Below are positions 2,694-6,538 of a stretch of 32,575 nucleotides of DNA, one piece after another. This DNA comes from Patescibacteria group bacterium UBA4664. GTDB taxonomy: Bacteria > Patescibacteriota > Saccharimonadia > CAILAD01 > BJGX01. Each line of letters opens with the position of its first letter. Positions within the stretch are counted from its first letter, which is position 1. Where the stretch lies: contig CALRCL010000007.1 in assembly GCA_943354575.1 (NCBI GenBank), positions 1-32,575 on the forward strand, in the 5' to 3' direction. The translations under genes were made by a program, and so were the position numbers. Below the pieces are notes generated by a model that did no database searches, was not told the origin of the DNA, and was given only the letters and a program-made list of their open reading frames with translations.

Positions 2694-3590
2694 ATGAAAA
2701 ATTCAAAGAAGTATATCATAGCAGCTGGTGCAGCTAGTGTAACCTTGCTAATGTTGCTGCTTCTCCTCCTCGGAAGTGGAGGACGCAGCATCCCTGTGGC
2801 AAGTGCTGGCGTTGGTTGCGATAAAGCAGCCGTCGTTACGGCAGCCCTGGTGTCGCGAGGCTTTACCGCCGATCAATTTACCTTTGAGGTAAATTGGGAC
2901 GCACCTGAAGCAAATACCAGGGGGTCTGCAGCGTTTACGTCGCAAACCCCACGCTCGGCCCAAGAGCTCGTCACCTTCATTGGTGGCAGTTCGCCCGAAA
3001 GTGAAGCTTCGTTGGCTTTAGTAACAGCCAGCGGTGTTAGCCGAGAGCAAGCACTGCAGCCCGATGGCTGGATTGCGGCTCAATTGCTAGTCAACTCGGA
3101 ATTGCCAGGTAACACTGGTTTTCGAGATGGACAGACGTTTGAAGCTGGAACCCGCCAGTCAAGTGCTGGTGAAGTGCTTTGGTACTTCGTGGACATACGC
3201 GCTTGCCAGAACGGTGAACCCGCCCCCCCGGTAATACCGGTAAGGGCGGGATGTGGCAACCCTCAAACGGAGTTGCCACGGCCGACCGCACCACCTACAC
3301 CAACTACACCGACTACCACCACTACCCGCCCATGCGGCGAGCTGTGTAAGGGCGAGGATACCCAACCCGCACCCTGCGTCGATAATAACGGCGTGAGGTG
3401 TGATGGTATTCCGGGCTCTGGTGGCTCCCCCGGCAACGGAGGAGCAGTGGAGCACGGAGATGATGGCTATTCGCCAGCAGATCCGCCACCCACCACTATC
3501 GTCAAGCCGGCTCCACCACCCACCACAGTGGTAACGCTGCCGCCTACGACGACACCACCAACTACCTATTTGCCACCCCCACCGGGGTAG
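2694..3590 (+). CDS. Secreted/membrane-anchored Pro/Thr-rich protein
   Basis: SD AGGAGGAG, signal/TM segment YIIAAGAASVTLLMLLLLLLG, low-complexity PT/PPTT C-terminus, several cysteines. Confidence 0.8.
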   Translation: MKNSKKYIIAAGAASVTLLMLLLLLLGSGGRSIPVASAGVGCDKAAVVTAALVSRGFTADQFTFEVNWDAPEANTRGSAAFTSQTPRSAQELVTFIGGSSPESEASLALVTASGVSREQALQPDGWIAAQLLVNSELPGNTGFRDGQTFEAGTRQSSAGEVLWYFVDIRACQNGEPAPPVIPVRAGCGNPQTELPRPTAPPTPTTPTTTTTRPCGELCKGEDTQPAPCVDNNGVRCDGIPGSGGSPGNGGAVEHGDDGYSPADPPPTTIVKPAPPPTTVVTLPPTTTPPTTYLPPPPG

Positions 3591-3613
3591 TGGCCGATAG
3601 GCTGGGCTATATA

Positions 3614-3642
3614 GTCCCGGGAGAGTTATACTCTCCCGGGAC
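3614..3642 (+). terminator. Strong hairpin after the Pro/Thr-rich protein gene
   Basis: GTCCCGGGAGAG-TTATA-CTCTCCCGGGAC, perfect 12-bp stem. Confidence 0.6.
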
Positions 3643-3744
3643 GCCCAACCCTACTTTTAAGCTTGAACCTAGTAGCGCAATATTATGCTGTTAGGTTCAG
3701 GGTTAAGCCCTGCAAATAGTGATCGTGCAATCATAGTACAGGTA

Positions 3745-3773
3745 TTGACAAAAATAACCAAAAGTGGTATCAT
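3745..3773 (+). promoter_or_regulatory. Sigma70-like promoter P1 upstream of the structured leader
   Basis: TTGACA (3745-3750), 17-nt spacer, TATCAT (3768-3773). Confidence 0.7.
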
Positions 3774-3791
3774 ACCGAACTGTAATAGCAA

Positions 3792-3900
3792 AATTGTTTT
3801 TTGGTCCTTGAAAGCTCAATAGTCATCCACTCCCAAAGAAAACGCTTCGGCGTTCGAGCTCTTGTGCTGTCCCCAATGCACCAGGAGCTAAAAAACAATT
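3792..3900 (+). ncRNA. Candidate structured RNA (5' leader element or stand-alone sRNA)
   Basis: AATTGTTTTTT (3792-3802) pairs with AAAAAACAATT (3890-3900), and the helix extends inward (GG.UCCU with AGGAGCU). Internal AACGC-UUCG-GCGTT hairpin (3841-3854) and a GTGC/GCAC hairpin. Confidence 0.45.
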
Positions 3901-3913
3901 AGAAAATTATCGA

Positions 3914-3942
3914 TTGACCTTACTAAAATTAACTCTTATTAA
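3914..3942 (+). promoter_or_regulatory. Second promoter-like element P2 proximal to the LPQTG gene
   Basis: TTGACC (3914-3919), 17-nt spacer, TATTAA (3937-3942). Confidence 0.4.
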
Positions 3943-3977
3943 CCATTCATTAACTATTCATTTAAAAGGAGATACCT

Positions 3978-5306
3978 ATGAAACTTAAAACTTTTGCCAA
4001 ATTGGCCGTTTTTGTAGCCGCTATTGCAGCTGCAATCATAATTCCAATAACTGCCATTGCAGGTTACGAACCAGCCAACAGACCGGTCAAAACCTACACT
4101 GGCGCCGATTCCGTCGCTTTTGACTACCCAGTATTTAATTCGTGGGTAAACACACCAAACTACGGCGATGAACGAGCATTTTTTGATGCTGGTAGCGCCA
4201 CTAGTGGCCCCTATAAAGATCAGCTTGTCGTTGTTCCTGGCCAAGAAGTAACACTTAGAATGTATATTCATAACGGTGCTGCTCCTAGCCTTAATGGTAC
4301 AAACTTCAACGGTCCTGGAGTTGCACGCAACACTCGTTTGCAGGTGTTTTTACCTACCGCCACCTCGACTTCATTAAGAAGTTTTGGATACATTATCGCT
4401 GATAACACCAACCCTACCTGGGTTGCTGATTCGGTCGATTTTAATTCCTCAGTTCCTGTAAATATGGAATACGTTCCTGGTTCTGCTCGTCTTGCCAACG
4501 GCGCTCACCCCAATGGTGTAGCCTTGCCTGACAGCATTATCCAGCACGATAATCAGTTCAACGTAAATCGTCCAGCTGCTCCTATCGGATACCAGAACAT
4601 GGACGGTAATTTTCCTGGCTGTTTCGAATATGACGCTTTTGTAACCTTGAAAGTTAAGATCAACGGACCAAAGCTAGAAGTAAGCAAAAAGGTAACCACT
4701 CCTGGCTCTACTAACTGGCAAGAAAACCTTGATGTTAACCTCAACGACCCGGCTGCTACTCCTACCACTAGTTGGTTAATCGAGTACAAAAATACCGGCT
4801 CGGCGATGGTTACAAATGGTGCCGTCCGAGACACCCTACCTGCCAACCTAAAGTTGGTTCCGGGCTCAGTCATGAACTTCGATGGTAACCACCCTCAAGG
4901 AATTGCTGTAGCTGACAATGGCCTATTCGACGGAGGCGTCGGAATTGGTAATGTGGCTCCAGGTGCTAACGGATATTTCCGTTTCAGAACCACGGTCATT
5001 ACGCCATTCTCAGCCCAAGAATGTGGAACTAAAAAAATAGTTAACACAGCTCAGGTCGAGGCCACTGGAATAGCTAAGATCAACGATGATGCTAGTGTAA
5101 CAGTTAGTAAAACCGTCGATTGTGCTAAACCACCAACACCTCCAACACCTCCAACTCCTCCTACACCACCTACACCAGCCCCTATCTTGCCACAAACTGG
5201 TATTGAGACAGGATTGCTAGGAGTGCTAGGCTCAAGTGCGATGACTATCGGTGCAATCAAGTACCGTAAGAGCCGAAAAGCTCTAGCCGAAGCTCTAAAA
5301 AGCTAA
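3978..5306 (+). CDS. DUF11-type surface protein with LPQTG sortase sorting signal
   Basis: SD AAAGGAG; signal peptide; DUF11-like region (WLIEYKNTGSAMVTNGAVRDTLPANLKLVPGSV); Pro-rich spacer (PTP/PPT); LPQTG, hydrophobic stretch, KYRKSRK tail. Confidence 0.88.
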   Translation: MKLKTFAKLAVFVAAIAAAIIIPITAIAGYEPANRPVKTYTGADSVAFDYPVFNSWVNTPNYGDERAFFDAGSATSGPYKDQLVVVPGQEVTLRMYIHNGAAPSLNGTNFNGPGVARNTRLQVFLPTATSTSLRSFGYIIADNTNPTWVADSVDFNSSVPVNMEYVPGSARLANGAHPNGVALPDSIIQHDNQFNVNRPAAPIGYQNMDGNFPGCFEYDAFVTLKVKINGPKLEVSKKVTTPGSTNWQENLDVNLNDPAATPTTSWLIEYKNTGSAMVTNGAVRDTLPANLKLVPGSVMNFDGNHPQGIAVADNGLFDGGVGIGNVAPGANGYFRFRTTVITPFSAQECGTKKIVNTAQVEATGIAKINDDASVTVSKTVDCAKPPTPPTPPTPPTPPTPAPILPQTGIETGLLGVLGSSAMTIGAIKYRKSRKALAEALKS

Positions 5307-5348: not shown

Positions 5349-5381
5349 GAAAAAGACCCTGCAACTAGTAGGGTCTTTTTC
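5349..5381 (+). terminator. Rho-independent terminator
   Basis: GAAAAAGACCCT-GCAACTAGT-AGGGTCTTTTTC: perfect 12-bp stem with a T-run. Confidence 0.85.
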
Positions 5382-5425: not shown

Positions 5426-6538
5426 ATGAAACAATCAATAGAACAATTAAAAGCGCTTCAAGCCAAACTCGGCGACGCCGTACAAAAGCTCGATCTAGAT
5501 AGCGATAAGCAAAAGCTTGCCGAATTAAGGCAACAAACGGCAGGTGCTGATTTCTGGAACGACCAAGCCCGTGCCGAGATGATTACCAAGCAAGCCGCCA
5601 GCCTGGCAGCTTATACCGAGCTATGGGACAACACAATTGAGGATATCAACACCACCTTGGAGCTTTTGGAATACGACGACCATGACAAAAAGGACGACCA
5701 TGATGCAAAAAGCGACCAGAGCGAATACCAGTCAGACATCGACAAGCTAATCGTAGCAGCCGAGAAGCTCCTAATAACTGTTAAGCTCAACGGCCCTCAT
5801 GACAAATCGCCGGCTATTATGCAACTCTCGGCTGGAGTTGGTGGTACTGATGCCGCCGACTGGACGGCAATGCTAGAGCGAATGTACTTGCGATACGCCG
5901 AGGCCAGCGGCCTGCAGGCTGAAGTACTGGATGAAAGCCCTGCCGAAGAAGCCGGCCTAAAAAGTGCTACCATCCGCTTTAGTGGCCCTTTTGCCTATGG
6001 CAAATTGCAATCCGAAAAAGGCGTGCATCGCCTTGTACGCTTGAGCCCATTTAACTCTGCCAGCCTCAGACAGACATCCTTCGCACTTGTCGATGTAATA
6101 CCAGAAATATCCCAAACTGAAGCCCTAATTGACGAAAAAGATCTTAAAATTGACACTTACCGCAGTAGTGGCAACGGCGGTCAGAGTGTTAATACCACCG
6201 ATAGCGCGGTCCGTATTACACATTTGCCAACAGGACTAGTTGTGGCTATCCAAAACGAACGCAGCCAGCTCAAAAACAAACAGCGTGCTATGAGTATTTT
6301 GGCCAGTCGCCTAGCCGAACAGGCACGTGAGCAGCACCTAGAGAGCATTAACGAGCTCAAAGTATCGTCCAAATCCGCCGACTGGGGAAGCCAAATCAGA
6401 TCGTACGTATTGCACCCTTATCAGAAGGTCAAAGACAACCGCAGTGGCTACGAAACCAGTGATACCCAAGGAGTTTTAGATGGCGACCTGGAGCCCCTGA
6501 TTGAAGCTTACTTATCTAGTCAAGTTGGTAAGGATTAG
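5426..6538 (+). CDS. prfB: Peptide chain release factor 2
   Basis: SPF tripeptide (VRLSPFNSASLRQTSFA) and GGQ motif (RSSGNGGQSVNTTDSAVRITHLPTG); in-frame, no frameshift site needed. Confidence 0.95.
   Translation: MKQSIEQLKALQAKLGDAVQKLDLDSDKQKLAELRQQTAGADFWNDQARAEMITKQAASLAAYTELWDNTIEDINTTLELLEYDDHDKKDDHDAKSDQSEYQSDIDKLIVAAEKLLITVKLNGPHDKSPAIMQLSAGVGGTDAADWTAMLERMYLRYAEASGLQAEVLDESPAEEAGLKSATIRFSGPFAYGKLQSEKGVHRLVRLSPFNSASLRQTSFALVDVIPEISQTEALIDEKDLKIDTYRSSGNGGQSVNTTDSAVRITHLPTGLVVAIQNERSQLKNKQRAMSILASRLAEQAREQHLESINELKVSSKSADWGSQIRSYVLHPYQKVKDNRSGYETSDTQGVLDGDLEPLIEAYLSSQVGKD

Follow-up and report, generated by a model that had tools for sequence, protein, structure and literature searches.

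A conserved promoter and a boxA-like leader motif ahead of an LPQTG surface-protein gene in Saccharibacteria

What kind of signal lies in the DNA ahead of an LPQTG-anchored surface-protein gene of a Saccharibacteria genome: a structured RNA, as the original prediction proposed, or something else? We addressed this question in the window, the whole 32,575-nt stretch of DNA that was analyzed, which forms contig 7 in a draft genome of 607 kb. On the best reading, the region comprises the promoter and 5′ leader of the LPQTG surface-protein mRNA in a Saccharibacteria (UBA4664-type) organism, in line with the predicted placement of the region in the leader of that gene.

The locus and its promoters

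The surface gene (3978–5306, + strand) encodes a 442-residue LPQTG-anchored protein with a DUF11 domain, identified from its translation and from matches over cut-off to both Pfam DUF11 and NCBIfam LPXTG_anchor. The same protein is encoded by relatives assigned to Patescibacteria UBA4664 and Candidatus Saccharibacteria. Its 5′ neighbor is a gene for a Pro/Thr-rich, secreted-looking protein (2694–3590), and 3′ of that gene's stop codon stands a perfect 13-bp G+C-rich hairpin (inverted repeat I2, 3614–3642, assigned to neither strand; 100% complementary), which has no clear U-tract and occupies the same position in relatives. By reading, many of them repeat this arrangement, with the G+C-rich hairpin between the Pro/Thr-rich gene and the surface gene. 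Direct reading also gives a Shine–Dalgarno sequence, AAAAGGAG (3964–3971, + strand), which relatives keep, and a terminator-like hairpin of the intrinsic type with a T-run (5350–5381, + strand). The prfB gene, identified by PCRF/RF-1, starts 3′ of this hairpin at 5426, and the surface-gene mRNA looks monocistronic.

P1 (3745–3773, + strand) is a sigma-70-type promoter with an extended −10: the promoter scan reports TTGACA (3745–3750), a 17-nt spacer, and TATCAT (3768–3773), with 11/12 matches and a TG before the −10. We compared the window with surface-gene orthologues from a sister species (G003, 86% protein identity) and from G007, G010, and G008 (75–78%). P1 is present in all five aligned leaders, including that of the sister species, so the predicted promoter stands: P1 is conserved and is the true promoter of this LPQTG surface gene, and its position places a likely transcription start near 3780. 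P1 belongs to a promoter type, TTGACAAAAATAAgCATATGTGgTATAAT, that is spread across the class with an unusually conserved spacer (window 3745–3773; L005–L019) and precedes many different genes across Saccharibacteria. We also considered P1 as a special operator (ACCAnnnnTGGT) and rejected the idea, as its −35/−10 represents a general promoter type in the class and the palindrome is broken in the sister species.

A second promoter, P2, had been proposed further along the leader. The string itself, TTGACC-17-TATTAA (3914–3942, + strand), is there, but the promoter scan does not report it, and the relatives lack it. Since shuffled versions of the region are expected to give the scan 0.9 sites each, the unconserved match falls within chance expectation and is probably fortuitous; P2 was rejected as a promoter.

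A genome-specific helix and covarying hairpins upstream of P1

The proposed structured RNA lies between these two promoter-like elements (3792–3900, + strand), and its sequence features are all where the original prediction put them. The arms AATTGTTTTTT (3792–3802) and AAAAAACAATT (3890–3900) are exact and 100% complementary, and the minimum-free-energy (MFE) fold contains both the AACGC(UUCG)GCGUU hairpin (3841–3854) and the GTGC/GCAC hairpin (3864–3867/3878–3881). Folding of 3785–3910 (126 nt) gives an MFE of −29.6 kcal/mol (z = −3.1), matched by 0/200 shuffles; over 150 nt, the z-score is −1.8, and 10/200 shuffles do as well. Dinucleotide shuffling of the leader produced an 11-bp perfect inverted repeat at the same spacing in 12/2000 cases, and a z-score of −3.1 or lower was found in 4/109 windows of 126 nt taken along the contig. 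By these shuffle and contig-window results, the helix is a real sequence feature, locally above chance and unexceptional for its contig; the statistical surprise is moderate. The Rfam check of the region bore out the view that it belongs to no known RNA family, with no match at the gathering score, and a permissive search, up to E = 5, likewise gave no match within the leader.

DNA similarity to the window covers 3740–3831 in G010 (E = 5e-14) and 3742–3827 in G007 (6.5e-9), and covers P1 only in the sister species, which has ~50 nt from P1 to the start codon and lacks the rest of the leader. G007, G008, and G010 keep P1 and ~30 nt of leader, with both helix arms absent; in the leader alignment, the arms, the UUCG hairpin, and P2 occur in none of the four relatives. 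Nor do the relatives' leaders fold better than their shuffles (z from −0.5 to +0.9). The helix is thus specific to the window's genome among the genomes compared, and the candidate of a conserved RNA was rejected: the helix is real as a fold and not as a conserved element. Like riboswitch- or thermosensor-type leader RNAs, it forms a stable fold 5′ of a Shine–Dalgarno sequence in this genome; it differs from them in having no Rfam match and in folding without conservation or covariation.

A functional role for this helix, as a cis-regulatory RNA or as an independent sRNA between two promoters, is accordingly improbable. The perfect 11-bp arms, the local z-score, and the UUCG hairpin speak for it, as does the fact that the helix takes in part of the conserved motif described below. 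Against it stand the absence of arms and hairpins in all four relatives, whose leaders fold like shuffles, the weak and unconserved P2, and a single-copy region without a family. P1 lies upstream; a scan of 3560–4000 found no intrinsic terminator past the helix to end an sRNA. The proposal of a structured RNA as an evolved unit is not supported, the helix lacking conservation in relatives, the outcome that the original prediction itself had named as refuting it. At most, the helix could mask the boxA-like motif, part of which it pairs. We also rejected a multicopy or mobile element, because the leader region is single copy in its own genome and relatives share the motif that the helix contains, which implies that the leader region as a whole is not an insertion.

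A better candidate for a structured element lies outside the proposed RNA. Between the G+C-rich hairpin and P1, the tandem hairpins at 3659–3713 (+ strand; GAACCTA...TAGGTTC followed by AGGG...CCCT) form a covarying element on the evidence of aligned sequences: across six relatives, 4/7 pairs of hairpin 1 have changed on both sides with 98% of cells paired, against at most 59% in slid controls. The hairpin 2 pattern, GTTCAGGGTTN1-4CCCTGC, occurs once per genome and at this locus only (G000, G003, G007, G008, and G010). Folding of 3600–3720 gives z = −6.9, mostly from the G+C-rich hairpin. AGGGUU could pair with either an upstream AACUU-like arm or CCCU, giving two exclusive folds within 3659–3713. 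Because the element is 5′ of P1, it would act as a DNA-level palindrome or as part of a read-through transcript from the upstream gene.

A boxA-like motif in the leader

A short, conserved signal is very likely present in the leader. The motif TGGTCCTTGAAAGCT (3802–3816, + strand; core CCTTGAAA) resembles the boxA of rRNA leaders, a NusB/S10 site, and lies in a conserved stretch that extends to ~3829; similarity to relatives ends just past it, at 3831 (G010) and 3827 (G007). The pattern TTTGRTCNTTGAAAGCNNAATAG is found in G000, G007, G008, and G010, deviating twice in G010 and once in G008; it occurs once per genome and at the surface-gene locus only. In these four genomes, it lies 20–28 nt after the −10 and has stayed in place where the surrounding leader has diverged and turned over. 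The distance is +28 in the window and +14 to +30 in most relatives of the window's family, f1. The sister species keeps the gene and P1 and lacks the motif, which we count against the boxA reading.

To score this resemblance, we built a profile from 29 boxA-like sites of same-class 16S leaders, hand-aligned on TTGA/TTAA, using no surface-gene sequence. In leave-one-out scoring, nearly all 29 sites were the best site in their own 600-nt 16S leader. Scores of at least 12 bits were reached by 23/55 surface-gene leaders vs. 6/128 control leaders, taken from other intergenic regions of the same genomes (Fisher p = 3e-9; Mann–Whitney p = 1e-14; kinship of sequences ignored). At 9.4 bits or more, 27 sites were observed against 2.8 expected from the general background, with 5 on the reverse strand. 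Within f1, the first 55 nt after the −10 gave a combined p of 9e-7, uncorrected for relatedness. Relatedness among the sequences makes all of these enrichment p-values smaller than they should be, to an unknown degree.

The match in the window itself is only suggestive when read from its own letters: the site scores 7.6 bits (p about 0.05 in the first 55 nt and 0.33 over the whole leader). In G005 and G011, even the best match is poor. The idea that each leader is closer to its own 16S boxA was rejected, the expected direction appearing only weakly (mean 13.9 vs. 12.9–13.5 of 24 for other genomes, at sites not preselected). Boxes complementary to the Shine–Dalgarno sequence (UCCUU/AAGGA) were also noticed and are not general outside f1.

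Families other than f1 carry, ahead of the same surface gene, a related linear element, (G/A)TCTGAYTTG-n-TTAACAAnnCGG, located at L104 1353–1398 and in the leaders of L036, L037, L042, L048, L050, and L086–L118, with no Rfam match. Its pattern CTGAYTTGN4-30TTAACAANNCRG has 9 matches in 99 genomes, 8 of them directly 5′ of the surface gene and the remaining one in L156 (G005:C4:10025–10059); the reversed control has 0 matches in the same 99 genomes. For the composite TCTGR...TTAACAA, the counts are 20/44 among non-f1 surface leaders, 4/22 among 16S leaders, 0/128 among control leaders, and 2/3096 among background windows; the 16S count is the independent part, since the composite was chosen with the surface leaders already in view. 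A model of 17 copies gave 14 matches in 613 kb, 12 of them held-out surface leaders, and matched neither 16S leaders nor the window's own leader. No covarying helix was seen in the element, which fits a linear boxA-like signal, and a hairpin pairing the element's 5′ arm with TTAACAA was rejected on the same ground. These patterns thus point to a linear element with a boxA-like core that is found class-wide and is specific to this locus; boxA would be our best guess for it.

Two further features were noted. In G037, perfect terminal inverted repeats, GCTATTAAACCTGTATTTT, bound a ~130-nt insertion in the surface-gene leader (L093, reverse strand from 1290), positioned after the class-wide element and before the Shine–Dalgarno sequence. 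G001, from the same genus as the window's organism, carries a ~208-nt repeat (L165 525–731 and L166 43–250; 88% identical in inverted orientation) with AAAAGTGGTAT-like ends that looks like a small mobile element.

A putative link to NusB–S10 and its alternatives

The classical function of boxA is to oppose Rho, although that role does not strictly define it. NusB is encoded in the window's genome (PF01029, E = 1e-36) and in all f1 genomes tested. Rho (TIGR00767) scored over cut-off in 0/14 Saccharibacteria genomes (among G000–G017), whereas 8 controls did score over cut-off; weak Rho matches, paired on one contig, are most likely F1-ATPase subunits. With Rho not found, a classical anti-Rho role is unlikely, and any effect would instead fall on elongation speed, pausing, intrinsic terminators, or RNA folding and handling. 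The surface-gene mRNA, apparently monocistronic, has no terminator to pass, which also counts against the boxA reading.

The boxA consensus GYTCTTTAANA is gamma-proteobacterial, and the boxA of rRNA operons binds NusB–S10 (PMC5725501; PMC10250234). In rRNA, boxA is required to recruit the factors and suffices to do so, and contributions to RNA folding have also been suggested (PMC10250234). The present motif resembles rRNA boxA and rrnTAC as a short linear motif with a CTTTGAAA/CTTTAACA core just 3′ of a promoter, in genomes that encode NusB, and the same-class 16S profile detects orthologous surface-gene leaders. It differs in standing on a protein-coding mRNA, in the lack of a detected Rho among the tested genomes, in the deviating window copy (CCTTGAAAGCT) with its modest score, and in having neither a boxC-like part nor a leader–trailer helix shown. 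Outside rRNA, boxA is established at suhB and at a ParE-like gene in Citrobacter (C. koseri) (PMC5725501). Like the suhB site described in 2017, ours is a boxA-like site in an mRNA leader, conserved among relatives at one locus (PMC5725501). Sites of the suhB type usually lie <50 bp from the start codon (PMC5725501), whereas the window motif is ~160 nt upstream of it. The suhB boxA promotes Rho-dependent termination of suhB (PMC5725501), whereas here Rho was not found and the target gene is unrelated. Our literature search, with most subscription journals outside it, found no paper joining Saccharibacteria and antitermination.

We regard boxA as the leading explanation of the leader motif, at about even odds. 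The fuller reading, to which we assign a probability of roughly 45%, combines an ordinary promoter and leader, a probable boxA-type signal, and a genome-specific helix, with NusB–S10 acting on the leader. Transcription would start at P1 near 3780, and the signal TGGTCCTTGAAAGCT, ~25 nt into the transcript, would bring NusB–S10 and Nus factors to RNA polymerase soon after it enters the leader; the loaded polymerase would then enter the rRNA mode of elongation or engage in cotranscriptional RNA handling. Both NusB–S10 binding to the leader and its effect are predictions.

A serious competitor, itself short of even odds, holds that P1 drives the gene and that the leader is an ordinary untranslated one, its likeness to boxA reflecting convergence on an AT-rich TTGAAA/TTAACAA-like string. 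The motif might then serve initial transcription, mRNA 5′-end stability, or an RNA- or DNA-binding factor. That the sister species does without the leader fits this account, as do the weak boxA score of the window taken by itself and the weak own-vs.-other 16S similarity. Composition alone, however, would hardly yield the 16S-profile enrichment over same-genome control leaders, or a composite shared only with 16S leaders. It is less probable that the functional RNA is instead the tandem hairpin element at 3659–3713, within a read-through transcript of the Pro/Thr-rich gene, or that this element is a DNA palindrome bound by a P1 regulator, in which case the leader after P1 would matter little. 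Covariation in 4 pairs, single-copy occurrence, and retention in the sister species without the leader favor such a role, and, by reading, a P1-like promoter is missing from the stretch between element and gene at many non-f1 loci. Yet the element is 5′ of P1 and thus outside the P1 transcript, only six sequences enter the comparison, and DNA palindrome and RNA hairpin are indistinguishable in these data. A function of these hairpins is also compatible with the NusB–S10 reading, the two not being exclusive.

Extended across Saccharibacteria, the NusB–S10 reading becomes a tentative proposal, somewhat doubtful as it stands, that NusB–S10, through a leader boxA of the type usually found in rRNA operons, ties one surface-protein mRNA to ribosome synthesis. 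Surface-protein output would then follow the free NusB–S10 pool, through rRNA-style transcription without detectable Rho. If true, this would be a locus-specific rRNA-type boxA on an mRNA in a lineage without detected Rho, offering a way to ask about NusB–S10 roles other than opposing Rho, and ribosome synthesis would be linked to surface-protein output in ultrasmall, reduced-genome bacteria. Regardless of that outcome, the class-wide single-copy element and the covarying upstream hairpins are undescribed in Rfam, and both offer a way into the control of the surface gene in organisms difficult to culture.
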